Assembly: GCA_910574345.1 (NCBI GenBank)
Contig: CAJSZV010000034.1
Coordinates: 1 to 44,423, forward strand
Source of the DNA: Clostridiaceae bacterium
GTDB lineage: Bacteria > Bacillota > Clostridia > Lachnospirales > Lachnospiraceae
Length of the DNA: 44,423 nt
Direction: 5' to 3'
Part shown: positions 4,307 to 22,628 of the stretch, piece after piece
Numbering within the stretch: position 1 is the stretch's first letter
How the letters are laid out: every line of letters begins with the position of its first letter
Program-made: the position numbers and the translations under genes
The notes under the pieces: model-generated
Told to the model about the DNA's origin: nothing
Seen by the model: only the letters and a program-made list of their open reading frames with translations
Database searches by the model: none

Positions 4307-4475
4307 GACCGTTTCATTCCCTCATTTCCTGGAGAAAACTCCGGGTTGTCCCTTAGAGGCAGGGCTGCTGTGAGCTTTGGCCTTGAAAAAGAACGGTAAG
4401 GGGCGTAAAAAGACACACCGGGCAAAGAATGGCTTTTCCGTCAAGAGCAGACTATTATGCAAAGGACGGGAGAGA

Positions 4476-5363
4476 ATGGAACAATATACATTTATAGACG
4501 AACTGCCAAAAAAGATTGCCAGGGCCATAAGTTTCTTCCAGATGTTTGAGAAGGCAGCGCTGGGATACCGGCCGGAGGGATATTACCTGGCATTCAGCGG
4601 AGGAAAGGACAGCGTGGCAATTTACGGGCTGGCAAAGATGGCTGGGGTAAGATTCACGGCCCACTACCATTTGACAACCGTGGACCCGCCGGAATTAGTC
4701 CGGTTTATCCGAAAGGATTACCCGGAGGTACAGGTGGAAAAGCCGGAGCTTACCATGTGGGAGCTGATTGTAAAAAAACAGATCCCGCCTTTGAGGAGAG
4801 CCCGCTACTGTTGCGAGGCATTGAAGGAACATGGCGGCGAGGGAGCGTTTACCGTAACCGGAGTCCGCTGGCAGGAAAGCAGGAAACGACAAAAACGAAC
4901 CAATCTGGAAATTCTGACTTCTAAAGATCCCATTTACCTAAACTGTGATAATCAAGAATCCCGCCGCCAGGTGGAAACCTGCGCCTTGAAGGGAAAACGT
5001 GTGCTGAATCCTATCATTGACTGGACGGAAGAGGAAGTGTGGCGGTTTATCCGTACCTATGGTCTCCCTTACTGTGTCCTGTATGACCAGGGATTTAAAA
5101 GGCTTGGCTGTCTGGGCTGTCCCCTTGCAGGCACGAAAAACCGGGAACGGGAATTTGCCCGTTATCCCCAGTATGCCAGGGCCTATATCCGTGCCTTTGA
5201 CCGGATGGTGGAGGCACGCGGGGCTTCGGGCAAACCCAAGGGCAGCTGGAAGGACGGGGAGAGCGTGTTCCGGTGGTGGATGTGCGGAAATGGAAAAATG
5301 GAGAAGCAGGTGGAAGGGCAGATAAAATTAGAGTTTGAAGATGACGCCGGAACAGCGGCATAG
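4476..5363 (+). CDS. PAPS-reductase-like PP-loop ATPase (DndC-like superfamily)
   Basis: This is an adenine-nucleotide alpha-hydrolase of the phosphoadenosine phosphosulfate reductase family. The PP-loop SGGKDS is at residues 41-46 and is followed by HYHLTTVDPPEL. A Cys pair occurs at RARYCCEALKEH, the internal motif VTGVRWQESRKR is present, and the C-terminal Cys cluster is LGCLGCPLAG. Such proteins activate a substrate with ATP or move sulfur, as in cysteine biosynthesis or DndC of DNA phosphorothioation. No dnd, cys or ibr partner is nearby, so the substrate is unknown. The ATG at 4476 is chosen because GGGAGAG precedes it; a TTG at 4377 is in frame but has no good ribosome site. The protein ends DAGTAA. 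Confidence 0.85.
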   Translation: MEQYTFIDELPKKIARAISFFQMFEKAALGYRPEGYYLAFSGGKDSVAIYGLAKMAGVRFTAHYHLTTVDPPELVRFIRKDYPEVQVEKPELTMWELIVKKQIPPLRRARYCCEALKEHGGEGAFTVTGVRWQESRKRQKRTNLEILTSKDPIYLNCDNQESRRQVETCALKGKRVLNPIIDWTEEEVWRFIRTYGLPYCVLYDQGFKRLGCLGCPLAGTKNREREFARYPQYARAYIRAFDRMVEARGASGKPKGSWKDGESVFRWWMCGNGKMEKQVEGQIKLEFEDDAGTAA

Positions 5364-6954: not shown

Positions 6955-7794
6955 ATGAACATGGCCAAAAGTATTTTTGAAAAAATGGAGAACATCCATG
7001 AAGTCAACCGCATGGCAGCAGAGCTACGGCGGCTGGGAATGAGGGGGAAGCTAAAGGAACTGGCAGGAAAAAACCAGGTAATGGATGAGGATTTTGAGGC
7101 GTTCTTTCTGGGAAAGCGGTATTTTCTTGTAGACGCGGGAGAGACCCGGAAGACCTATGACACAGCCAGGGCAAAACTGATGGATGAAATGCTTGCCCTG
7201 AACGATCCTCTTTTTGGAAACGTAATCTGCGGTTATCTGCTCCGGTGCTGCGTTGAACCGGAATTTCAGGAATCCGTGCTCCAGGCCCATAAGACGCTGC
7301 AGCGGTGTATCGAATATGTGATGGAGCAGGCTTACGGACTGCTGGATGAAAACCAGAAAGAGGCCAGAAGGAACACGGCAGTGGCTGTGGTATCAGACCA
7401 GGTATTTCAGTGGGCAAAGAACTATTATACTCTGGACGATAAAGCTGCCCTGGACAAAAAGTGGAAAAAGGCAGAAAAGGAGTTCCTGGACCGGAATAAG
7501 CCAAAGGAAAATAGAGCAACAGGCAGGGGGACATCGAAAAAGAAGACTTCCAAAACGTCAAAAACCTCTAAGACATCGAAAAAGAGTTCCGGCACAGGGG
7601 ATTCTGTGAAATCAGGCGCCAGCAGTGGTCCAGCAGTTTTGGATAAGAGTCTGGCACAGAAAACGGCGACCAGTAACAACAGGCTTCCGGAAAATATCCA
7701 GACCGAAGATTTGCCTTTGGCAGAGTCGCAAGCTGCACAGAAAGGACAGATTGAAGGACAGGTCTCCATGTTTGGCATGGGACCGGCGGCATAA
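6955..7794 (+). CDS. PcfK-like / AcrIIA9-family protein
   Basis: This 279-residue protein resembles the PcfK-like family, some members of which were found to inhibit Cas9 (AcrIIA9). Supporting blocks are the helical core around residues 95-150 (LQRCIEYVMEQAYGLL, then AVVSDQVFQWAKNYYTLDD). It lies two genes upstream of a PcfJ gene, the usual PcfK-PcfJ association. From about residue 180 the tail is low-complexity, with repeated KTS triplets (KTSKTSKTSKTSKK), probably disordered and DNA- or protein-binding. The end QVSMFGMGPAA contains a clamp-binding-like Q-V-S-M-F and an Ala-Ala terminus. Whether this copy inhibits Cas9 is not shown. A second ATG at 6961 is possible. Confidence 0.7.
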   Translation: MNMAKSIFEKMENIHEVNRMAAELRRLGMRGKLKELAGKNQVMDEDFEAFFLGKRYFLVDAGETRKTYDTARAKLMDEMLALNDPLFGNVICGYLLRCCVEPEFQESVLQAHKTLQRCIEYVMEQAYGLLDENQKEARRNTAVAVVSDQVFQWAKNYYTLDDKAALDKKWKKAEKEFLDRNKPKENRATGRGTSKKKTSKTSKTSKTSKKSSGTGDSVKSGASSGPAVLDKSLAQKTATSNNRLPENIQTEDLPLAESQAAQKGQIEGQVSMFGMGPAA

Positions 7795-7908: not shown

Positions 7909-8493
7909 ATGATACTTGCCTACAAAGGATTTAACCCGGATTTGTCCTGTACATCAGGGGGAAACCGTTTCCAGTACGTCCTTGATCGCTGGAATGAGGA
8001 GCCTAAGGCCAACTGCGGCCAGAACGGTTTCCACTGTGCGGAGAATCCCCTGGACTGTCTGGCGTATTACCCCCATATGGAGAAATCCGTCTACTATCTG
8101 GTAGCAGCAGCCGGGGACATCAATGATGATCAAAATGGCAGCAGGATCTCCTGTACCAGGCTGCGGCTGGTGAAGCGGCTGAACCGGGAGGAATTTGTGG
8201 CCCACAGTCTGAACTACATCTGGAATCATCCCCTTCGGGAGAATAACCGGCGGGTGTGCATAGAAAGCGGGGAAGGGAAGGACGGCTTTGTGATCGTCAG
8301 AGGAAAAATGCCAAGAGCCTGCGGGAAACTGGGGGACGTTCTTGGAATGGTTAAGGAAAAAAGAGGAAGCAGAGAGGGCATGGAGATGGGACTTTACGTG
8401 GTTGACGGCAAAGAGATTCTGCCAGATATATGGTATAACGTCCACGGAAATCCGGTGGAAAGCATGAAGAAAGGAGCAGCTGTTCCAGCATGA
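7909..8493 (+). CDS. DUF7666-like element/phage protein
   Basis: Start ATG at 7909 is preferred over 7870 because AGGAGAG lies about 9 bases upstream. The N-terminus MILAYKGFNPDLSC is followed by CGQNGFHCAENPLDCLAYYP. This pattern of YKGFN, a Cys-containing turn, GFHxxENPLD and then YYP matches a small domain I associate with phage and element proteins (DUF7666, name from memory). The function is unknown. The C-terminal half holds a GLYVVDGKEI strand-like segment and ends GAAVPA. The stop overlaps the PcfJ start (ATGA), so the two are coupled. Confidence 0.6.
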   Translation: MILAYKGFNPDLSCTSGGNRFQYVLDRWNEEPKANCGQNGFHCAENPLDCLAYYPHMEKSVYYLVAAAGDINDDQNGSRISCTRLRLVKRLNREEFVAHSLNYIWNHPLRENNRRVCIESGEGKDGFVIVRGKMPRACGKLGDVLGMVKEKRGSREGMEMGLYVVDGKEILPDIWYNVHGNPVESMKKGAAVPA

Positions 8494-10754
8494 AAAAATC
8501 ACAGCTAAAGAAATTGAAAATCCTGTACGCAACAAAGCAGATGATTGAGATGGCAAAAAAGGAAGTGCCAAAGAAGCATGAATATGACAACCAGGAATCC
8601 TTCGGCCTAAGCCTTTTTATGAGGTGCCAGGTGGAGAAGGGAATCTTAAACGTGTCACTGTTTTTCACAAGGGACCTGCGCATAGGCAGCCATAAGCCGG
8701 CGTATCAGGTATTTGTAGACAGAGAGTCCGGAAATTTTGTGACCTGGGACTCTGTTCTGGGGAAATGGAGAGAGGCAAAGGTGGATTCTCTGGAGTGGCC
8801 GCGGGCATTCTGGTGGACACAAAAATATATCAGTCCCAAAGATAACAAGACCCTGCAAAATTATCTGGGTGTTTCAGAAGACGGCTATGACGGGCTTTTG
8901 GAATATCAGAGAAAGATAAGGGAAGAGCAGCTTGTGAAAAGGCACAAAAAGGAGACAGACGCCTGGGACCAGTATCTGGCCCAGGTTCCTAAACTGCCAG
9001 CGGACTGGGACCGATGGGTCGATAAGGAGGGGATTGAGCAGAATTACATCTTTTACGATTATTCCCGAAAAAAGAACCAGAAGGGCTACTGCAGCTGGTG
9101 CGAAAAGGAAGTCCCCATTGAAAAGCCCAGGCACAATAAAGAAGGTGTGTGTCCGGCCTGCGGCAGAAAGATCCAGTTCAAAGCCAGAGGACGGGCCGGA
9201 AGATTCTGGACGGATCAGTGGTACGTCTATCTGCTCCAGGACTGTAAAGACGGAATGGTGGCGCGGAGGTTTTCTGCATGGCGTTATTATAGGAAGGGAG
9301 AATACGAAACCCCGGAATATACCTGCAGGGAGGAACGGAGGGTCATCTATGGAGACGGCCTGACATCCAGAACCTTCTGCTATGGGTTATACAAAAAAAG
9401 AGATTTCCGGTGGATGGAAGCCAACAGTCAGAGCTATAACCGTTCCGGTTTTTACTGGCATTATTTTAAAGAAAAATATGAGGGACGGTTATACGGCATT
9501 TCCTTGTCGGACCCGGAATGCAGGGGGCTTGAACGGACGGGACTGCTCCAGTTTGCCCAGCAGAACGAACAGGTTGATCCGGAGCAGTATTTTTATCAGT
9601 TAAGGAAAAAGCCCTATCTGGAGCGGCTGGTAAAATGCGGCCTGTTCCGGCTGTCCGGGGAGGTTTACGATGGAAAGGCAGATCTGGAGATTAAGGAGTC
9701 TTCAGATTTTGCGAAATCCATTGGCATAGACCGGCACCGGCTGAAGCGGCTGAGGGAGCATAACGGAGGGAGCCGGTATCTGAGATGGCTGATCTTAGAG
9801 AAAAGCCAGGGAAAGGAGATTCCGGATTCGGTCATCGACTATTTTTCCAGCCATAGCATAGAAGCCAATGACCTGGATTTTATATTGGGCCAAATGAGCG
9901 TGATACGGATTAAGAATTTCCTGGAAAAACAACATAAATTGTCCGGCCGGCCGCCAAAGGAGCTTCTTTCCACCTGGAGGGACTATCTTTCCATGTCTGT
10001 AAGACTGAAACGGGACATTACCAGGGAGCTGTTTTTCAAACCCAGAAACCTGTTGGAGAGCCATGATGAGGCTGTGGCGCTGTGCGGGAATAAAGAGATT
10101 GCCATGCGTGCGGCGGAAGTGACAGGGAAGTATCCGGATGTTGACAAACTATGCCAGTCCATGAAAGAAAAGTTTGAATTTGCAGATAAGAAATACTGCA
10201 TTGTGGCGCCGGAGAAGGTGGAGGACATCTTATATGAAGGGCAGGCTTTAGGGCACTGCGCCAATTCCAGCGATATCTACTATGAACGGATTCAGAACCG
10301 GGAGTCCTACATCTTGTTTCTTCGGAAGGCAGAGGAACCGGACAAGCCCTACTATACCCTGGAAGTGGAGCCGGACGGAACAATCCGGCAGAAACGGACG
10401 GTGGGAGACAGGCAGAATAAGGACCTGGAGGACGCTGTGGAATTTTTGAGGAAATGGCAGGAGGAGATCCAGAAACGGCTTACCCTGGAGGACTACAGGC
10501 TTGCAGAGGAAAGCTCCAGGCTCCGGGCAGAGGAATTTAAGAAGCTGCGGGAGGAAAAGGCCAAAATCTGGCACGGGCATTTGCAGGGACAGCTGCTGGC
10601 GGACGTGCTGGAGAGAGACCTGATGGAAGCGGTGAGAAGCGCCAAGGTGAAAGACAGAAACTTTGAACCGTCCGATGAAAGTGAGGAGTGCATAAAGGAA
10701 GGGGACCAGGAGGCAGAGCAGAAAGAGGAAATGACTCTGTCTGCGGCCGCCTGA
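8490..10754 (+). CDS. PcfJ domain-containing protein
   Basis: This 754-residue protein has the PcfJ arrangement. A four-Cys zinc site (C201, C204, C221, C224; CSWC then CPAC) lies in the N-terminal third and a long helical middle follows. The hallmark block at about residues 580-650 reads ALGHCANSSDIYYERI, ESYILFLRK and PYYTLEVEPDGTIRQKRT, with H589 in the core. PcfJ was named from the conjugative plasmid pCF10 of Enterococcus; its biochemical role is unclear, and it is common in Gram-positive conjugative and phage-like elements. It starts by ATGA overlap with the preceding gene. The C-terminal 100 residues are charged coiled coil ending TLSAAA. Confidence 0.88.
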   Translation: MKKSQLKKLKILYATKQMIEMAKKEVPKKHEYDNQESFGLSLFMRCQVEKGILNVSLFFTRDLRIGSHKPAYQVFVDRESGNFVTWDSVLGKWREAKVDSLEWPRAFWWTQKYISPKDNKTLQNYLGVSEDGYDGLLEYQRKIREEQLVKRHKKETDAWDQYLAQVPKLPADWDRWVDKEGIEQNYIFYDYSRKKNQKGYCSWCEKEVPIEKPRHNKEGVCPACGRKIQFKARGRAGRFWTDQWYVYLLQDCKDGMVARRFSAWRYYRKGEYETPEYTCREERRVIYGDGLTSRTFCYGLYKKRDFRWMEANSQSYNRSGFYWHYFKEKYEGRLYGISLSDPECRGLERTGLLQFAQQNEQVDPEQYFYQLRKKPYLERLVKCGLFRLSGEVYDGKADLEIKESSDFAKSIGIDRHRLKRLREHNGGSRYLRWLILEKSQGKEIPDSVIDYFSSHSIEANDLDFILGQMSVIRIKNFLEKQHKLSGRPPKELLSTWRDYLSMSVRLKRDITRELFFKPRNLLESHDEAVALCGNKEIAMRAAEVTGKYPDVDKLCQSMKEKFEFADKKYCIVAPEKVEDILYEGQALGHCANSSDIYYERIQNRESYILFLRKAEEPDKPYYTLEVEPDGTIRQKRTVGDRQNKDLEDAVEFLRKWQEEIQKRLTLEDYRLAEESSRLRAEEFKKLREEKAKIWHGHLQGQLLADVLERDLMEAVRSAKVKDRNFEPSDESEECIKEGDQEAEQKEEMTLSAAA

Positions 10755-11501: not shown

Positions 11502-12935
11502 ATGTATTTGAAACGAAAAATATATGACCGACTGATGGAATGGAAGAACGATAAGAGCCACAGCACGTTGGAGGTAAACGGTGCCAGACAGACCGGAAAG
11601 ACTTACATCATCAATAAATTTGCAGATGAAAATTTCAAGCATAAAATCTACATTAATTTGTTTGACCTTTCCGGAAAGCAGTTTATGGAATGCTATCAGA
11701 AAGCAACGGAATGGGTTCCGGGAAGCAGACGGCCGGATTTTCCGCTTCATGAGGCGGTCCGCCTGTATGAGCCTTCCTTTCGGGATTGCGGGGATACGGT
11801 GATCATCATTGATGAGATTCAGGAATCTTCGGAGATTTATAACCGGATCAGAGAGTTTACCAGACAGTTTCAGGCACGGTTTATCGTCACGGGAAGCTAC
11901 CTTGGACGGGTGCTGGAACCGGAGTTTCACTATGCCAGCGGGGATATTACAAAGCTGCGGATCTATACCCTTTCCTTTGAGGAATTTCTGGAGGCACTGG
12001 ACGGGGAACTTTACCAGACATGGAGAAGCCTTCCTTTGCTTGAGGCAGATGACAACTGTCCGGAGGTGTATGACCGGCTGAGGCTGGCCTATGACCAGTA
12101 TTGCCAGATTGGCGGCTATCCGAAGGTAGTGGAAGCATATCTGGAAAGACGGGACATTCTGGCAGCCCGGAAGGAGCTGGTGCGGATTATCCAGATTTTC
12201 TTGGAAGAATCCATGCGGTATTTTAAGGATATTACGGATATCAGCGTGTTTACTAATATCTTCTTAAGTATCTGCCGTATCCTTTTGCGGGAAAAGAAGG
12301 GACTGGAGGAGGACAGTGTCAGTGAGGAGCTGAAAAAGCTGGTGACGAAGAATTATTCCAGCAACTTGTCAAAAGAAACCTGCAATCGGGCGATTAGCTG
12401 GCTGTACCATTCGGGGATTATCGGATTCTGCGGAAAGTTGTCACCAAACGGAACGAAGTGGAGTTTGATGACCTGCGCACGCCTCAGCGTGCTTCCTTGT
12501 GACAAGATTATTGAAATGGACTTTCTGGATTTTAAGCCGGGAAGACGGTGCTTTTTTATGGACCCAGGGGTTGCGGCCTACTATTTAAACAGGGTAGGAA
12601 CTACGGAAGCGGCTGTCTGCGGAACGCTGAATGAGAATTATGTGTTCATCAATCTTTTAAAGCGCCAGGACTTTCCTGAGGAGATCACTTTTGAAATGCC
12701 TGCATTTGCCACATATAAAGGCGGAGAGATCGACTATGTGGTGCAGACAATCCAGGGCCATAGGAGATATCTGGTGGAGGTGAAATCAGGAAAAGGAAAG
12801 GCGGCTACCGCTCTTAAAGCCCTGGAGGCTGGAAAAGCGGATTGGCTGCTGTATCTGAAAGGCAATACAAAGGGCGGTAAGGAAGGAAAAATTCTTACAC
12901 TGCCTCTCTATATGCTGGAACGGTTTGCGTTTTAG
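11502..12935 (+). CDS. AAA family ATPase with DUF4143 / nuclease-like C-terminal domain
   Basis: This 477-residue protein has a Walker A GARQTGKT at residues 27-34 and a Walker B DTVIIIDEIQ at about 98-107, with sensor-like IVTGSYLG after it. This is the AAA_14 plus DUF4143 architecture. Near the C-terminus GGEIDYVV followed by YLVEVKSG places D411, E426 and K428 in a PD-(D/E)xK-nuclease-like spacing, as often seen in this family. Members are common in anaerobes and are poorly characterised. The gene has its own extended -10 promoter and a terminator after it, so it is an independent unit among the element operons. A defence or maintenance role is plausible but unproven. Confidence 0.85.
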   Translation: MYLKRKIYDRLMEWKNDKSHSTLEVNGARQTGKTYIINKFADENFKHKIYINLFDLSGKQFMECYQKATEWVPGSRRPDFPLHEAVRLYEPSFRDCGDTVIIIDEIQESSEIYNRIREFTRQFQARFIVTGSYLGRVLEPEFHYASGDITKLRIYTLSFEEFLEALDGELYQTWRSLPLLEADDNCPEVYDRLRLAYDQYCQIGGYPKVVEAYLERRDILAARKELVRIIQIFLEESMRYFKDITDISVFTNIFLSICRILLREKKGLEEDSVSEELKKLVTKNYSSNLSKETCNRAISWLYHSGIIGFCGKLSPNGTKWSLMTCARLSVLPCDKIIEMDFLDFKPGRRCFFMDPGVAAYYLNRVGTTEAAVCGTLNENYVFINLLKRQDFPEEITFEMPAFATYKGGEIDYVVQTIQGHRRYLVEVKSGKGKAATALKALEAGKADWLLYLKGNTKGGKEGKILTLPLYMLERFAF

Positions 12936-15054: not shown

Positions 15055-15312
15055 ATGGTAGCAGTAGCTCATACAGCGGATTTGAAAAATTTAGATATTA
15101 GGACGATTCAACCGGATACATTAGAACATATAGAGAACGTGAAAATAAATACTGATTTACCAGTCGAAGAACGAATGATGGAATTTGTGAGGCAGATTAA
15201 GAATCCCTATTTTTTCCGTTGTGGGAAGCTGATTGTCCAGGTTGAATACAGCGATACTGATAAAACCATTAACGATTGCCTGAAAGAATTTATTGAAAGC
15301 CAGATAAGTTAA
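15055..15312 (+). CDS. DUF6870-type small protein preceding recombinases
   Basis: This 85-residue protein starts MVAVAHTADLKNLDIRTI. It contains DLPVEERMMEFVRQIKNPYF followed by FRCGKLIVQVEYSDTDKTIN, a pattern I associate with a small family (DUF6870, name from memory) commonly encoded in Lachnospiraceae integrative elements, often next to recombinases. It is probably a compact alpha/beta protein. Biochemical function is unknown; a role as recombination accessory factor or regulator is only suggested by position. AGGGAGGA stands 7 bases before the ATG. Confidence 0.7.
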   Translation: MVAVAHTADLKNLDIRTIQPDTLEHIENVKINTDLPVEERMMEFVRQIKNPYFFRCGKLIVQVEYSDTDKTINDCLKEFIESQIS

Positions 15313-15432
15313 AAGTATATGGACAAATCCTTCAAAAATTGTTACAATAGTTTCAGGAATAAAATCAGAAAAGCTTATCAACCAGGCAATCAGTTTTCTG
15401 ACTTAATTGATTATGTCAGGAGAGTGAGTTTT

Positions 15433-17136
15433 TTGCGTGGTAATTCAGAAGGTGTTTTTTACGCCACTCCATATTATCGCATTTCCAATGACGATGGAGA
15501 TCTTGCCGTTTCAGGCAAAGGGGAAAGCAACAGTATCAGCAATCAGAGAAGCTTAATAGAGGATTATGTAAAGGACAAACCGGAGATCATTCTTTGTGAG
15601 GAGAGGGTGGATGACGGTTTTAGCGGCGTGGATTTTGAACGTCCTGCCTTTAAACAGATGATGGAAGATGTAAAGGCGAGGAAGACAAACTGTATTATTG
15701 TCAAGGATTTATCACGCTTCGGAAGGAATTACATTGAGGTGGGAAGGTTTATTCAAAAAATCTTCCCTTATTTGGGTGTGCGCTTTATTGCGGTAAATGA
15801 CAATTATGACAGCGCAAAAGGAAATAATGTGGAGGACAGTATTATGCTGCCCTTCAAGAACCTGATGAATGATTCCTACAGCAGAGACCTTTCTGTAAAG
15901 GTAAGGAGCCAGTTTGAAATAAAGCGGAAGAGAGGAGAATTTATCGGATCTTTTGCTGTATACGGATACAAAAAGAATCCTGAAAATAAAAATCAGTTAG
16001 TGGTGGATGAATATGCGGCTGCTGTGGTGAGAGATATTTTTAAATGGCGGCTCTCTGGTATGAGCAATGAAAAAATAGCAGAGAGACTCAATGAACAGGG
16101 AGTCTTATCGCCGGCAGAGTATAAACGGTCTCTTGGCCTTCGGTATCAAAGTGGATTTCATGTGGAGAAACAAGCTATGTGGAGTCCGGTTGCTATAGGC
16201 CGGATTTTATCGAATCAGACTTATCTGGGGTGGGTGGTCCAGGGGAAAAGGACCACCCCCAACCACAAAGTAAAAAAGGTGATTGAAAAGAATCCGGATG
16301 AGTGGGTGATTGTGAGGGATATGCATGAAGCAATTATCACAGAGGAAGACTTTCAGACCGTACAGAACCTGATGAAAATGGATACCAGGATTTCTCCGGG
16401 AAAAGCAAGGGTGTATTTATTTTCGGGGATGTTGGAATGTGGAGATTGCAGGGCCGCCATGGTTCGGAAGCTGGTAAGTGCCGGAAAGGATTCGGAGGGA
16501 AAACCAAGAAAATATCCTTATTATGTGTGTTCTGGTTATAAGAAGGACAAATGCTGTACCAGTCATATGATTCGTGAAGGAGAGCTGGAAAAGGTGGTCC
16601 TGATTGCTTTAAATAACCATATTTCCGCATTAATCAATTTAAAGCAGGTGCTGACAATTCTGGAAAATACGCCTCATTTCAGACAGGAGACGAAGAAACT
16701 TGACATCCAGATGTTAAAAATGAATGAGGAGATTGTCCGGGTACAAAACTTAAAGGTTTCTTTATATGAGGATTTGACGGATGGCGTCATTGATAAGGAG
16801 GAGTATTTTGAACTGAAACAAATCTATACAAAGCAGATTGGTGAACTGGAGAAAAAGAAGGCCCGCCTGAAGGAAGAGCAGGAATTGTGCAAAATAGAAA
16901 ATATCCGAAAGAATGAATGGATGGAATCCTTTTTACAGTACCAGAATCTCCATTCTCTGTCCAGAGACATTGTTTTAAAGCTGGTGGAGAAGATAAAGGT
17001 TTTTGAAAAAGGCCGGATAAAGATCGTGTTTCGATTCCAATACGATTATGAAATGGCTTTGCAGACCGCAGCAATATATCAGGAGTATCAAAATCGTGAG
17101 TGTAAAGGGGAGGACCAGGATGGCCAGAAAAAGTAG
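15433..17136 (+). CDS. Large serine recombinase 1
   Basis: This is a site-specific DNA integrase/excisionase of the large serine family. The resolvase domain begins at PYYRIS, with catalytic Ser18 counted from the TTG at 15433. It continues ESNSISNQRSLIEDYV, DDGFSGVDFERPAF and IVKDLSRFGRNYIE, which supplies the active-site Arg residues. A recombinase domain, a zinc ribbon (LECGDCRAAM ... YVCSGYKKDKCC) and a coiled coil follow. The TTG at 15433 has AGGAG 10 bases upstream and gives 567 aa; an in-frame ATG at 15319 has no ribosome site and would add 38 unusual residues. The gene overlaps recombinase 2 by 17 bases. Confidence 0.9.
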   Translation: MRGNSEGVFYATPYYRISNDDGDLAVSGKGESNSISNQRSLIEDYVKDKPEIILCEERVDDGFSGVDFERPAFKQMMEDVKARKTNCIIVKDLSRFGRNYIEVGRFIQKIFPYLGVRFIAVNDNYDSAKGNNVEDSIMLPFKNLMNDSYSRDLSVKVRSQFEIKRKRGEFIGSFAVYGYKKNPENKNQLVVDEYAAAVVRDIFKWRLSGMSNEKIAERLNEQGVLSPAEYKRSLGLRYQSGFHVEKQAMWSPVAIGRILSNQTYLGWVVQGKRTTPNHKVKKVIEKNPDEWVIVRDMHEAIITEEDFQTVQNLMKMDTRISPGKARVYLFSGMLECGDCRAAMVRKLVSAGKDSEGKPRKYPYYVCSGYKKDKCCTSHMIREGELEKVVLIALNNHISALINLKQVLTILENTPHFRQETKKLDIQMLKMNEEIVRVQNLKVSLYEDLTDGVIDKEEYFELKQIYTKQIGELEKKKARLKEEQELCKIENIRKNEWMESFLQYQNLHSLSRDIVLKLVEKIKVFEKGRIKIVFRFQYDYEMALQTAAIYQEYQNRECKGEDQDGQKK

Positions 17137-18823
17137 AAAGGAAAGCAGCGTTCAAACAAGCGAAAGCTTTAGTAAAACCATTGGTTATCAGGTGGGATTC
17201 TATTTGAGATTATCGGATAAAGAGGCGAAGGACAGGGATAGTGAATCCATTGAGAATCAGTTTGTTTTGTTAAAGGATTTTATTAAAAACAAGCCTGATT
17301 TCCGCCTGATTTCCACGTTTACGGATGATGGAAAGACGGGGACGAATTTTAGGAGAAGTGGATTTGAGCAGATGATGGATGCGGTAAGAAATGGGCGGAT
17401 CAACTGTATTATAGTAAAAGATCTGTCACGCTTCGGAAGAAATTATCTGGAAGCAGGGCATTATATTGAGCATGTGTTTCCTTTTCTCAATGTTCGGTTT
17501 ATTGCGGTTACAGATGGCTTTGATACACTGACAGCTACTCCAGCTCAGTTGTCCTACCTGATTCCTCTTAAGAATATCATGAATGAGAACTATGCCAGGG
17601 ATATTTCTAAAAAGGAGCGTTCCGCAAAAAAGGTATTGAGGAAAAAGGGATATTTTTTGGGCGCCTATGCCATGTACGGATATGAAAAAACATCGGATAA
17701 ACATGTGATTGGAGTGGACCCGGAGGCAGCGGTTCATGTGAAAACCATTTTTGATTTGTGTGAGAAGGGATACAGCGATTCTGCCATAGCAAAATACCTC
17801 AATGAACGTAAGATTCTCTGTCCGGCCAGGTATAAATATGAGAAGGGAATTGTAAAAGACGCCAAGTATGCCAACAAATCTGGCTGGTATCCGCAGACCA
17901 TAGGGGGGATTTTGACCAGCCGTGTTTACATAGGGGACATGGTTCAGGGAGCAAGGAGAAGTAAGGAAATAAAAGGAAAGAAAGAAGTGGTTCCTATGAG
18001 TGAGTGGGATATTGTTTCAGGAACTCATGAAGCAATCATATCGAAAGAGCAGTTTGACAGAGTGCAGGAAATCCGTATGGACAGGCATAGGCGGTATGAG
18101 AAAATGATACAAGAGAATCGGAGACTGGCTGGGAAATCAGAAGACAGTGGTATTTTGAAGGGAAAAGTGTTTTGTGGTGATTGTAAAAGGGCTATGGTAA
18201 GGAAGCATATCAAGTCATGTAAAGATAAGTATCGGTATGTCTGTGATATACATGAAAAAACAGGACAGTGCAGCCGCAAGTTTTTACCGGAGCAGGAACT
18301 GTTTGAGATGCTTGGCTGTCTGATCCGGAGACAGATTGAGGCGGCCTGCCAGGTCAAAGAATGGCTCCATAGCAGGAAGCAGGAGGAAGCAAGGGAGTTG
18401 CTCCGATTTGAACAGACGTTTAGAGAAACAGAGGATAAACGGAGCCGTCTTGTGCAGAAAATGGCAGCGCTCTATCAGGATTGGAAAGAAGGGATTCTTG
18501 ACCAGGACGAATATTTCTATATGAAGAAGCGATATGAGGAGGAATTGACCGGGTGTGAAGGGGAAAGAGAGGAACTGATGGGCAGGAAACAGGAATATGT
18601 TATGGCCTATACATCGGAGAATCCTGCATTGAAAGCAGTATCGGAGATCCCATATGATTTTGTGTTGTCAAGGGAATTGGTTGACAGGTTGATCGAGAAG
18701 ATTGAAATTTATGAGGGAAACAGAGTCAGAGTTTCTTTTAAATTTCAGGATGAAATGCAGAGACTGCTTAGAGCAAAGGAGGCAGGGGTTATCAGTGAAG
18801 AGAGAGGAGAGACTGCTGGTTAA
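17120..18823 (+). CDS. Large serine recombinase 2
   Basis: A second full-length large serine recombinase of 567 aa. Ser32 lies in FYLRLSDKEA, then ESIENQFVLLKDFI, DDGKTGTNFRRSGF and IVKDLSRFGRNYLE. Zinc ribbon Cys are in VFCGDCKRAMV and YVCDIHEKTGQC, followed by a long coiled coil. Start ATG at 17120 is supported by GGGGAGG. It overlaps both neighbouring recombinases, so the three are translated from one transcript. It is clearly divergent from recombinase 1, so this is not a recent duplication. Which of the three performs integration cannot be told from sequence. Confidence 0.9.
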   Translation: MARKSRKESSVQTSESFSKTIGYQVGFYLRLSDKEAKDRDSESIENQFVLLKDFIKNKPDFRLISTFTDDGKTGTNFRRSGFEQMMDAVRNGRINCIIVKDLSRFGRNYLEAGHYIEHVFPFLNVRFIAVTDGFDTLTATPAQLSYLIPLKNIMNENYARDISKKERSAKKVLRKKGYFLGAYAMYGYEKTSDKHVIGVDPEAAVHVKTIFDLCEKGYSDSAIAKYLNERKILCPARYKYEKGIVKDAKYANKSGWYPQTIGGILTSRVYIGDMVQGARRSKEIKGKKEVVPMSEWDIVSGTHEAIISKEQFDRVQEIRMDRHRRYEKMIQENRRLAGKSEDSGILKGKVFCGDCKRAMVRKHIKSCKDKYRYVCDIHEKTGQCSRKFLPEQELFEMLGCLIRRQIEAACQVKEWLHSRKQEEARELLRFEQTFRETEDKRSRLVQKMAALYQDWKEGILDQDEYFYMKKRYEEELTGCEGEREELMGRKQEYVMAYTSENPALKAVSEIPYDFVLSRELVDRLIEKIEIYEGNRVRVSFKFQDEMQRLLRAKEAGVISEERGETAG

Positions 18824-20351
18824 GTATTACCGCCTTTCCCTGGAAGATGAGGCAGACGGGGAAAGTAACAGTATCAGAAACCAGAGAAAGCTTATTGAAG
18901 ATTATGTGGAGGAAAGGGAGGATTTAAGAGAACTTGGCAGTCTGGAACTGTCTGATGACGGATATACAGGAACCAACTTCAATCGTCCGGGAATCAAAAG
19001 ATTCCTGGATCTTCTTAAAAAGAACCAGGTGGCATGTTTGGTTGTGAAGGATTTTTCACGATTTACCAGGGATTATATTGAACTAGGGAATTATGCGGAG
19101 CAGATCTTTCCGTTTATGGACGTTCGTTTTATTTCTGTAAATGACAGATATGACAGCAGTTTTCAGAGCAGCCATGACGGCCTGGAGATTCCGTTTAAGG
19201 GGATTTTAAACGATTTATACAGTAAGGATATCTCCACGAAAGTAAAAGCGGCGAAACGGCAGATGATTAAGAACGGAAAGCTGTGCAGCGGCTCCTATCC
19301 CTTTGGATATAGAAAGAGGGAGCAGGGAGAGATTAACCGGGATGGGATACCCTATAGGATTGATGAGGAGGCAGCTAAGGTGGTACGGCTGATTTTTCAT
19401 CTGGCTCTTCAGGGAAAGAAAAATATTGAGATCGCGAGAGTGCTGAATGAACAAGGCTGCCTTACACCAGGTATGGCGAAGCGGAAAAACGGAAGCTTTG
19501 GATATGGCTTAAAAGAGGGGGAGAGATCGGTCTGGGATTCTACTAAGGTGCTGAATATTTTGCGGGATGAACGATATACAGGGACGCTGATCATCGGCCG
19601 TTACCGGGGAAAAGGCGTAGGAAGCGGAAAGGTAGAGGAGACGCCGGAGCATATGTGGTTCCGTAAAGAAATGGGGATGCCGGCCATTATTCTTAGGGAA
19701 GATTTTGAACGGGTACAGAGTTTGAGGCCTAGAGGAAAACGTGGGGCATATAAAAAGGAACACCATATTCTGTATCGGAAGGTTCGGTGTGCAAACTGCG
19801 GACATTTTTTATATTATAAGCCTTCAGAATATGGAGTGCAGTATCATTCATTTTTTTGCAAACAGCCTCATTTAAGACCGGACAGTGAATGTTTTCGGGG
19901 ATATATAAAAGAAGGGGAGATTCTGGAGGCTCTTTTAAGTATGATCCGGGTCCAGGTGCGGCTGGCTGAAACTATAAAGGCAGAGTCAAAAAGAAAAGGG
20001 AAGGGAGAGGAAAGGCAGCAGGCCAAAAAGCGTATAGAAAGGCTGGAAAAAGAGATTGAGCGAAAGAAAGACTTAAAGGCGCAGTGTTACAGCGAATATA
20101 AACATGGGGAACTTACGAAGGAGGAGTTTCTGCGGAAAAAGGAAAATATACAGGCCGAAATTCAGGTATGCCAGCAGGAGATCCAGATAATCCGGGAATC
20201 TATGGAGGATATGCAGGAGGATGAAAAGGAACTTATGGAGAGATATGGTGGTTATGAGGATGATATTAAATTGGACCGGGATATGGTAGAGAGACTTGTG
20301 GAGGTGATATGGGTGTATGATGTGGGGAGGGTGAAGATTGAATTGAAGTAA
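18795..20351 (+). CDS. Large serine recombinase 3
   Basis: This is the third member of the overlapping trio, 518 aa from a GTG at 18795 with AAAGGAGG upstream. Ser15 is in KYYRLSLEDE; ESNSIRNQRKLIEDYV, DDGYTGTNFNRPGI and VVKDFSRFTRDYIE complete the catalytic domain. The ribbon is VRCANCGHFLYYK with later Cys in FFCKQ and SECF. The C-terminal half has a strongly charged coiled coil (EKEIERKKDLKAQC). It ends about 90 bases before the element boundary, the usual position of an integrase next to its attachment site. Loss of any catalytic residue is not seen. Confidence 0.9.
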   Translation: MKREERLLVKYYRLSLEDEADGESNSIRNQRKLIEDYVEEREDLRELGSLELSDDGYTGTNFNRPGIKRFLDLLKKNQVACLVVKDFSRFTRDYIELGNYAEQIFPFMDVRFISVNDRYDSSFQSSHDGLEIPFKGILNDLYSKDISTKVKAAKRQMIKNGKLCSGSYPFGYRKREQGEINRDGIPYRIDEEAAKVVRLIFHLALQGKKNIEIARVLNEQGCLTPGMAKRKNGSFGYGLKEGERSVWDSTKVLNILRDERYTGTLIIGRYRGKGVGSGKVEETPEHMWFRKEMGMPAIILREDFERVQSLRPRGKRGAYKKEHHILYRKVRCANCGHFLYYKPSEYGVQYHSFFCKQPHLRPDSECFRGYIKEGEILEALLSMIRVQVRLAETIKAESKRKGKGEERQQAKKRIERLEKEIERKKDLKAQCYSEYKHGELTKEEFLRKKENIQAEIQVCQQEIQIIRESMEDMQEDEKELMERYGGYEDDIKLDRDMVERLVEVIWVYDVGRVKIELK

Positions 20352-20359
20352 GGGGGAAC

Positions 20360-20421
20360 CCCAAACTCCGTTTGGGTAGCGAATCCTTTCACGAAAAGAG
20401 CCAGTGAAAGGATTCTTTATT
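20360..20421 (+). terminator. Double hairpin at the element right end; second is a terminator
   Basis: Two perfect inverted repeats stand between recombinase 3 and the boundary: CCCAAAC/GTTTGGG with a 3-base loop (20360-20376), then 12-bp arms GAATCCTTTCAC and GTGAAAGGATTC (20381-20392, 20404-20415) followed by TTTATT. The second would end the recombinase transcript. Either repeat could also serve as a recombinase binding arm. Confidence 0.65.
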
Positions 20422-20424
20422 CCC

Positions 20425-21285
20425 TTACTTGACACCAGCCGGCATAGCCATCCCCGTAAGCACCCCATAGACGCTGAATGCCTCCGCCGAAGACAGCCCG
20501 AAGCTTACCAGGCTGCCGGGAATCCAGATGGCCTCGGCGCTGGAGAGGATGTTTAGTACCAGCCGGTTGCCCATGAGAGGAAGGGCCAGGGTCATAAGAG
20601 ACGGGGCTGTGGAACAAAAGGCAGTGAAAAAGGCAGTCCGGCCCTCTGAGGAGGAGGGGGTGAAAAAGCAGAAACAAAAAACAGAGAAAAAGCAGGCGGT
20701 CAGTTCCCCGATAAGATGTCCGATGACAGCTAGTTCCACGGTGATCTCCCGTCCGCTTTCCACAAGAATATCAGCAATGAGAAATACTGCAGCCATGCGG
20801 ACGATTTGCTCCATGATCTGGGCCATGGCCGGTATTTTTGTTTTCTGAATGCCGTAGTAATAGCCGTTGATGCAGGCGTGGACCGCAGAAAAGGGTACGG
20901 ACACAGCCAAAAAGGGCAGCAGAGAGGCACAGCGGTCCTCCATGAGAATATAGTGGGCAATGGGAACGGAAAAGCGGACAATAAGAGCCGCCAGTGCTGT
21001 ACCGAGGCCAAGGGAGATCACAAGGCCGGTCCGGAAGATCTGTTTTCCCTTTTGAACATTGGCAGCCACAAAGCGGGAGATGGCAGTCTGGATAGAACCG
21101 GCACACAGGGCAAAACAAATTCCGTAGATGGGATGTACCATATTGAAGATGCCAAGTCCCTCGGCGCCGATGGTGCGGGACAAAAAGATCCGGTAGAAAA
21201 AACCGAGGATTCGGGTGGCAAAGCCAGTGACAGTGAGAAGGAGAGTTCCGGTAATCAGGGTATGTTTTTTGAAGAAATCGGTCAT
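20425..21285 (-). pseudogene. SpoVB-type polysaccharide flippase, truncated by element insertion
   Basis: This is an integral membrane protein of the MATE-like oligosaccharide flippase superfamily related to stage V sporulation protein B. It starts MTDFFKKHTLITGTLLLTVT and has the family's GFYRIFLSRTIGAEGLGIFN-like segment, with about seven membrane helices. Full-length relatives have roughly 430-540 residues. This copy ends at 286, of which the last four residues come from the element. The lipid-linked precursor flipping role of the family (cortex or wall polymers) would be lost unless the element excises. The gene diverges from the nifS-like operon. The missing 3' part should lie at the other end of the element, outside the window. 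Confidence 0.8.
20428..20446. other. Element-chromosome junction (attR), inferred
   Basis: The flippase reading frame (minus strand) keeps its family sequence up to YGVLTGMAMP and then reads AGVK and stops. In SpoVB-type proteins a hydrophobic FLLFP-like stretch would follow that motif. The crossover must lie near the proline codon at 20440-20442. Serine integrases exchange a 2-base core, which cannot be identified without the left junction. Confidence 0.55.
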
Positions 21286-21363
21286 GACAGCTCCGATGCC
21301 AAAGGGAATTATTACAAAATATGTAAAGAGAAGATATGGTAGAACGAAAATATATAATCCCTA

Positions 21364-21446: not shown

Positions 21447-22628
21447 ATGAAACAAACGATTTATCTGGACAATGCAGCGACTACCAGGACCAGACCGGAG
21501 GTGGTGGAAGTCATGATTCCTTATTTTACGGAGAATTACGGCAATCCCTCTTCGGTATATGAATTTTCCGCTCCCTGCAAGCAGGCCATCGCCCATACCA
21601 GGGAGACCATAGCGAAAAGTCTTGGTGCAAAAACCAATGAAATATATTTTACGGCGGGCGGAACCGAATCCGACAACTGGGCCATCAAAGCCACGGCAGA
21701 GGCATACGCCTCAAAAGGAAAGCACATTATCACCAGCAAGATCGAGCATCATGCAGTGCTTCATACCTGCGAATATCTGGAAAAGAGAGGATTTGAAGTC
21801 ACTTATCTGGATGTAGACGAATACGGAACGGTGAAGCTGGATGAACTGAAAAAAGCTATTCGGCCCGATACTATTTTGATCTCAATTATGTTTGCCAACA
21901 ACGAGATCGGTACAGTGGAGCCCATTAAGGAGATTGGAAAAATTGCCGGAGCTCACGGAATTCTTTTCCATACAGACGCCGTTCAGGCCTATGGCCATAT
22001 ACCCATCAATGTGGACGAATATGGTATTGATATGCTCAGTTCCAGCAGCCATAAGCTGAATGGGCCGAAAGGCGTGGGATTCTTATATATCCGCACCGGA
22101 TTAAAGACGAGATCGTTCGTTCACGGCGGGGCTCAGGAGAGAAAACGCCGGGGCGGCACGGAAAATGTACCGGGTATCGCAGGTTACGGCAAGGCGGTGG
22201 AGATAGCTATGGCTTCCATGGAGGAGCGCGCCAAAAAGGAGACAGAACTCAGGGATTACCTGATCGAGAGGGTAATATCTGAGGTGCCCTATACCCGCCT
22301 CAATGGACACAGAACCAACCGGTTAAGCAACAATGCCAACTTTGCCTTCCAGTTTATCGAGGGAGAATCACTGCTGATTATGCTTGATTCCAACGGAATC
22401 TGCGGTTCCAGCGGCTCTGCATGTACATCGGGTTCCTTAGATCCCTCCCATGTGCTGCTGGCCATCGGCCTGCCTCACGAGATCGCTCACGGTTCCCTGC
22501 GTCTCACTCTCAGCGAGGAGAATACAAAGGAGGAGATTGATTTTGTGGTGGAGAAGATCAAGGAGATCGTGGCCAGATTGAGATCCATGTCGCCGCTTTA
22601 TGAGGATTTTATGAAGCAGACAAGATGA
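21447..22628 (+). CDS. Cysteine desulfurase, NifS/IscS type
   Basis: This PLP enzyme converts cysteine to alanine and a protein-bound persulfide, the sulfur source for Fe-S clusters and tRNA thiolation. Seen are the N-terminal YLDNAATT, the HHAVLH motif, FHTDAVQ, the PLP lysine K203 in SSSHKLNGPKG, and catalytic C326 in GSACTSGSLDPSHV. The long flexible Cys loop places it in the NifS/IscS rather than the SufS group. ATG at 21447 gives MKQTIYLDNA, the usual family start; upstream in-frame codons have no ribosome site. It is followed by a NifU-like scaffold and MnmA, which fits supply of sulfur to both. Confidence 0.93.
   Translation: MKQTIYLDNAATTRTRPEVVEVMIPYFTENYGNPSSVYEFSAPCKQAIAHTRETIAKSLGAKTNEIYFTAGGTESDNWAIKATAEAYASKGKHIITSKIEHHAVLHTCEYLEKRGFEVTYLDVDEYGTVKLDELKKAIRPDTILISIMFANNEIGTVEPIKEIGKIAGAHGILFHTDAVQAYGHIPINVDEYGIDMLSSSSHKLNGPKGVGFLYIRTGLKTRSFVHGGAQERKRRGGTENVPGIAGYGKAVEIAMASMEERAKKETELRDYLIERVISEVPYTRLNGHRTNRLSNNANFAFQFIEGESLLIMLDSNGICGSSGSACTSGSLDPSHVLLAIGLPHEIAHGSLRLTLSEENTKEEIDFVVEKIKEIVARLRSMSPLYEDFMKQTR

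Follow-up and report, generated by a model that had tools for sequence, protein, structure and literature searches.

A probable ICE-like element with three serine recombinases recurrently splits a SpoVB-family flippase gene at a single site

Organization of the locus

The window (the whole stretch of DNA that was analysed, 44,423 nucleotides, on contig C34 of genome G000) carries the 5′ half of a flippase gene of the SpoVB family, abutted by one end of an element with three serine recombinase genes. The features are listed with coordinates and strand.

1–20440, no strand: right-hand part of the element; the left-hand part is G000 contig C18, 74640–80842, and the middle is unassembled
6955–7794, + strand: PcfK-like protein (domain search)
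8490–10754, + strand: PcfJ-like protein (domain search)
11502–12935, + strand: AAA_14/DUF4143 ATPase, cargo (domain search), matching PADLOC candidate PDC-S01
15055–15312, + strand: small DUF6870 protein of 85 aa, directly in front of the recombinases and kept in three elements
15320–15348, + strand: sigma-A-like promoter (TGGACA-17-TACAAT, the second hexamer preceded by TG) that three elements share without change
15424–17136, + strand: serine recombinase 1, with a conserved GTG start (the mechanical ORF begins at 15319)
17120–18823, + strand: serine recombinase 2 (Pfam), start inferred from relatives
18795–20351, + strand: serine recombinase 3, nearest the junction (Pfam Resolvase and Recombinase)
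20441–20442, no strand: attR crossover core, GG on the + strand and CC on the gene strand
20441–21285, − strand: flippase 5′ half, SpoVB family, 281 codons plus the two-base core
21316–21345, − strand: candidate flippase promoter, GTTCTA-16-CATATTTT, with a mother-cell-type −10
21447–22628, + strand: cysteine desulfurase of the host flank, followed by nifU-like and mnmA-like genes (names by reading)

The cut flippase ORF (20425–21285, − strand) aligns in a profile search with positions 2–279 of the 488 positions of TIGR02900 (SpoVB), scores 187.9 bits and extends to 20425 only by way of an AGVK-stop supplied by the element. An earlier note on this DNA had described a flippase that keeps its family sequence to GMAMP and then stops within four codons, and the AGVK-stop after profile position 279 bears this out. 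The three recombinases do adjoin the junction as it described, and all of them have Resolvase and Recombinase domains. The element is larger than the extent it gave and takes in window 1–20440 together with C18 74640–80842.

The missing 3′ part of the gene (TIGR02900 positions 279–465) was located by a profile search of the same genome at C18 74085–74639, − strand, where it adjoins the opposite end of the element; a fragment at this far end was what the proposed insertion called for. The pieces on the two contigs abut at one and the same TIGR02900 position, and the break point in the window is 20441–20442. On the gene strand, attR passes from host ATGGCTATGCC into element GGCTGGTGTCAAGTAAGGG, and attL on C18 passes from element TATTATAACTCCTTCCCC into host CTTTATCTTC, with CC likewise at the junction; the exact crossover base within the attR core is a presumed one. 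When the halves are rejoined at the common CC, they form a single frame of 504 aa in which GMAMP-FIFFPSAITNS spans the join, in agreement with the GMAMP-FI.FPSA motif of intact relatives. Rejoining gives one frame in five of the six genomes tried (a set without G443), the failure being G008; the earlier note had asked whether the two parts would make one frame. The cut ORF takes its four C-terminal residues from the element, and GGCTGGTGTCAAG follows the core in G000, G003, G005, G026, G027 and G443. The ends of C18 and C34 both have matches elsewhere in the genome; no bridge was found, and the link between the two contigs is one of complementarity only.

Insertions at the same site in other genomes

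Among 49 genomes with the gene, from two genera, six are certain carriers of an insertion at this site (G000, G003, G005, G026, G027 and G443) and G008 is a possible seventh. The other 42 orthologues, in relatives without the element, have full-length frames, so the short gene is not a shared trait, as the earlier note had proposed to check. These numbers give a biased carrier frequency, as G000 was the starting point and a recombinase search led to G026 and G027.

In the genus of G000, the orthologue is present in 25 of 26 genomes (G000 included); G002, which is 78% complete, has only a distant paralogue. The open frames are 515–617 aa long in 21 of the 25, and the remaining four (G000, G003, G005 and G008) have 309–329 aa and an identical cut codon. 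An identical element end follows the core in G000, G003 and G005, and the 3′ half was found next to the same element end in all four. In the second genus, all 24 genomes have the gene, 21 of them with frames of 510–583 aa, and its third carrier, G443, was identified by the attR end. The element is attached to the flippase 5′ half with the same attR end in six genomes, and a near-identical attL end is present in six genomes, G008 included, in a search that covered genomes other than G443.

A contig search with recombinase 3 returned four loci (L066–L069). The L066 recombinase is 98% identical to that of G005, and L066 is most likely the G005 genome itself. L067 (bacterium D16-56) and L068 (an uncultured Lachnospiraceae genome) share the cut codon of the flippase (GMALP) and the element end that follows it; they also have a near-identical 3′ junction and, by reading, the same host neighbours in the flanks. 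The flank of L069, whose recombinase has 33% identity to recombinase 3, contains no such junction. The attR junction pattern matched in three of 397 family genomes, and the match is real only in the own genome; those in L074 and L075 proved on reading to be unrelated sequence. Contig C34 of G005 (L055 2898–3323) holds a second, shorter flippase 5′ copy, cut after about 100 codons, besides the element-split copy elsewhere in that genome.

G008 differs from the certain carriers. Its 5′ contig (C82) ends exactly at the core (L048 3818) with no element sequence attached, and its 3′ contig (C35; L080) has an element end next to a flippase 3′ half that has decayed. One C of the other genomes is missing from the left junction, part of the 3′ half has been replaced or deleted and contains stop codons, and the joined frame breaks. 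C82 matches the uninterrupted gene region of G024 at about 92% identity, C35 at only 80–84%; the corresponding dS values between G008 and G024 are 0.25 for the N half and 0.97 for the C piece. The two contigs probably come from different genomes, and the bin may mix genomes. Because C82 and C35 differ in relatedness, G008 is not counted as a certain carrier and its frame break is no firm evidence. Whichever genome holds C35, the contig shows that at least one element-bearing flippase 3′ half has decayed.

The recombinase genes of G000 and G005 differ by a dS of 0.03–0.05, in contrast to 1.2–1.4 for the flippase genes; the recombinase dS relative to D16-56 is 0.09–0.23. The element ends are near-identical and the host flanks have diverged. 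Near-identical elements in diverged hosts imply that the element moved between species, and site-specific integration at this site has occurred repeatedly. We also compared dN/dS of the flippase halves pairwise in 11 genomes (six carriers with G008 and five others). The N halves and complete C halves of the carriers have no raised dN/dS; a slight rise is seen in the C piece of G008, 68 codons long (0.10–0.18 within the genus versus 0.05–0.14 for the rest). As the insertions are young, low dN/dS values cannot separate restored function from recent insertion.

Contents of the element

The assembled parts of the element total about 26.6 kb, which is a minimum span. The three serine recombinases are adjacent and in the same orientation at one element end, also in G005 and D16-56 but not in G027. 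In the G027 element (L068 1–8283), recombinase 3 is intact, recombinase 1 is absent and recombinase 2 is missing its N-terminal part. ParA/ParB-like genes on the opposite strand (names by reading) adjoin the recombinase break. The best segments of recombinase 3 are 87–98% identical in three other genomes, and the Zn_ribbon_recom domain is above the Pfam cut-off in two recombinases and just below it in recombinase 3 (24.6 versus 25.3 bits). We found no mention of DUF6870 in the literature searched.

Other recognised genes of the element encode ParA, ParB, HicA, HicB, DUF6075, DUF5688 and DUF6809. A protein with a PAPS reductase domain (window 4377–5363) has a weak match to BrxP, and the BrxP-like and PDC-S01-matching proteins are possible defence cargo. 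The C18 end encodes a protein with a weak, below-cut-off match to a pilin-like conjugal transfer family; downstream of its 94% identical counterpart on C32 are genes for an 886-aa protein that matches no Pfam family and for a transglycosylase/C39 peptidase protein. Among the scanned proteins of the assembled parts (some small ORFs lay outside the scan), there is no relaxase, coupling ATPase or VirB4; of a possible conjugation module, these parts yielded PcfJ, PcfK and the weak pilin-like match. No phage gene, structural genes included, was recognised with Pfam and NCBIfam among the scanned element proteins of these parts. Viral contigs contain no relative of recombinase 3, and the 129 plasmid records with a match to it are all below 60% identity. 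The element is probably ICE-like, of the kind with a triplet of serine integrases, and may be capable of conjugation. A second, different serine recombinase triplet lies elsewhere in the genome (G000 contig C33, 38700–43550; L015 2701–7551, − strand), with a T4SS-DNA_transf coupling-protein gene nearby.

Identity of the flippase and its link to sporulation

Three intact orthologues of the split flippase score 287–302 bits on TIGR02900, below the equivalog cut-off of 372.3. A flippase on contig C3 of the same genome scores 207 bits and also matches MurJ; on account of the lower score and the MurJ match, it is less likely to be the real SpoVB. All 26 genomes of the genus have this other, SpoVB/MurJ-like flippase, which shows about 30% identity. 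Upstream of this other flippase, the strict mother-cell −10 was found in none of seven loci read (eight tried, in six genomes) and a loose form in two, a weak test, as three of the windows lie wholly inside a long ORF.

Of 44 readable loci in the two genera, 37 have the −10 CATANNNT upstream of the split flippase or its orthologues, compared with a mean of 8.2 and a maximum of 15 in dinucleotide shuffles, which ignore relatedness; 45 loci were tried, and four further genomes of the second genus gave no locus. The stricter CATANNNTNTA is found in 25 of the 44 (shuffles 0.7, maximum 3). The six certain carriers have both forms, as does G008, and GTTCTA lies some 15–16 bases upstream of the −10 in many loci. 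The same −10, GCATATA(T/C)T, precedes spoIVA in 20 of 21 loci of the own genus, the start of the remaining one not being recognised by the pattern used, whereas the −35 of the flippase differs from that of spoIVA. In Bacillus subtilis, cortex formation requires a set of sigma-E genes that includes spoIVA, spoVB and ykvUV (PMC517825), and deletion of spoVB leaves fewer than 1e-5 spores (PMC12096821).

SpoIVA was found in 24 of the 26 genomes of the genus, 23 of them above the cut-off, and G003 has two pieces below it; in the second genus, it was found in two of three carriers and not in G443. Judged from gene presence, the carrier hosts appear to be spore formers. Because the flippase belongs to the SpoVB family and has a conserved −10 like that of spoIVA, it is probably a mother-cell sporulation gene.

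Proposed mechanism of integration and excision

The element integrates site-specifically at the two-base CC core, within the codons for the GMA(M/L)P-FI motif of the flippase. In the integrated state, the flippase is split and presumably inactive, and precise excision by the recombinases of the element would rejoin its full-length frame. By analogy to gin, one recombinase would integrate the element and, together with a small directionality factor, excise it. Recombinase 3 is the candidate integrase because it is kept intact in L068, and excision would most likely be brought about by this enzyme with such a factor, for which DUF6870 is a candidate. That a triplet-serine-integrase element splits a SpoVB-family flippase at a CC core, and that excision would restore the gene, we consider very probable. 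Excision itself, the recombinase that acts and its timing are what we infer here. The circular attP junction was not found in the own assembly when up to three mismatches were allowed.

The region of the sigma-A-like promoter contains two such sites, compared with 2.6 in shuffles. No mother-cell promoter precedes the recombinases or DUF6870 in a scan of window 1–20430 and L013 2691–8843; the same scan gave three strict −10 matches and five looser −35/−10 pairs elsewhere in the element. One loose pair (L013 6930) is situated upstream of a 195-aa ORF. SP-beta and the Clostridioides difficile skin element combine a constitutive recombinase with a timed directionality factor, whereas for B. subtilis skin, vfbin and gin it is the recombinase that is tied to sporulation (PMC5595907). 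Since known systems use both timings, the sigma-A-like promoter neither excludes nor supports timed excision. The timing could come from a directionality factor in the missing middle of the element, and regulated excision, which the earlier note had suggested, seems plausible.

Comparison with known systems

Most known elements that interrupt sporulation genes have been described as prophage-like (PMC5595907, PMC10747680). The closest parallels are gin in gerE and the ICEs with triplet serine integrases. The gin element of Bacillus cereus ATCC10987, 28.6 kb in length, encodes three serine recombinases and lacks phage genes; during sporulation, GirC and the 42-aa GirX bring about its exit from gerE (PMC5595907). 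The element described here is likewise non-phage and of similar size, has three serine recombinases, splits a mother-cell sporulation gene (probably so here) and has a short core and one rejoined frame. It differs in its target, a flippase rather than gerE, and in gene order, with girA and girB forming an operon and girC lying apart in gin, whereas all three recombinases are adjacent here. In addition, girC is expressed in sporulation while the recombinases here have a sigma-A-like promoter, the gin core has 9 bp rather than 2 bp, and timed excision is proven for gin but a prediction here.

Streptococcal ICEs likewise carry, at one end and within the gene that they disrupt, a contiguous set of three serine integrases with Resolvase and Recombinase domains, and their repeats of 2–8 bp resemble the very small CC core; however, they target mutT, traG and hsdM, and the target here is a SpoVB-family gene in genomes with spoIVA (PMC4701971). 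Skin in sigK, SP-beta in spsM, vfbin in spoVFB and yin in yabG share with the present element a split sporulation gene, a probable one here, and a recombinase near the junction (PMC10747680, PMC5595907). These four are described as prophages or prophage-like, whereas no phage gene was recognised among the scanned proteins here, and prophage-like intervening elements have a single recombinase gene (PMC5595907) where we find three. A parallel with sigK, spsM and gerE is reasonable because the flippase has a conserved mother-cell-type −10. The hosts of the streptococcal ICEs are not known to form spores.

Is the insertion a developmental switch?

The arrangement may be a switch of the skin or gin type, in which excision in the mother cell during sporulation restores the flippase for the cortex and the forespore keeps the element. 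We regard this as quite possible, with slightly more doubt than belief. The role of spoVB as a sigma-E cortex gene in B. subtilis (PMC517825) and the severity of its mutant phenotype (PMC12096821) argue for a switch, as does gin, a non-phage element with three serine recombinases that does likewise in gerE (PMC5595907). It is further favoured by the CATANNNT −10 that the flippase, also in the six certain carriers and G008, has in common with spoIVA, and by the presence of SpoIVA in five of the six certain carriers and in G008. A constitutive recombinase with a timed directionality factor, as in SP-beta and the C. difficile skin element, would fit the sigma-A-like promoter; on the other hand, the recombinases and DUF6870 are not preceded by a mother-cell promoter, unlike the timed recombinases of gin, vfbin and B. 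subtilis skin. The truncated recombinase module of G027 also speaks against a switch, as does the broken joined frame of G008, though the contigs of the latter are doubtful, and since the insertions are young, intact halves are no sign of selection.

That same truncated module in a carrier agrees better with an ordinary ICE, whose excision is tied to conjugation only. The flippase would be off while the element is integrated, and sporulation would be impaired or covered by the other flippase. Our judgement on ordinary ICE-type excision, with the flippase off in most cells, is evenly balanced. The streptococcal triplet serine integrases, which disrupt mutT, traG and hsdM with repeats of 2–8 bp (PMC4701971), set a precedent, and the SpoVB/MurJ-like flippase present in all 26 genomes could provide cover. 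Against such cover stands the lack of a strict mother-cell −10 in the seven loci read for that flippase, a weak point given the loose form in two, and recurrence in spore formers would presumably be costly if sporulation were abolished. An assembly artefact, in which unrelated contigs merely end within a repeated element, is hardly credible: several genomes do have contig breaks within the element or at its border, and the two contigs of G008 probably do not belong together, but the same attR and attL ends lie beside diverged host halves in separately assembled genomes and meet at the same base. What is well supported by this evidence is a recurrent, site-specific and reversible-looking ICE-like insertion in a probable mother-cell flippase gene.

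Implications

A search of mainly open-access literature found no paper on insertion of an element in spoVB. The present element would join the intervening elements of sporulation genes, nearest to gin, with a new target gene. A probable cortex gene is struck repeatedly at one site by a young, moving ICE-like element, and the occupied and empty sites form a natural series in which three forms of tolerance can be compared: timed excision, redundancy and loss of sporulation. The carriers are relatives of gut bacteria in which sporulation is regarded as the means of spread between hosts. With more reserve than for the switch as such, we suggest a transmissible conjugative element that resides in a cortex-flippase gene and is excised from it in the mother cell alone, so that the element stays in the spore lineage. 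If this is true, a developmental switch would have been spread by horizontal transfer among gut spore formers, and it is the dying mother cell that would receive the repaired gene.
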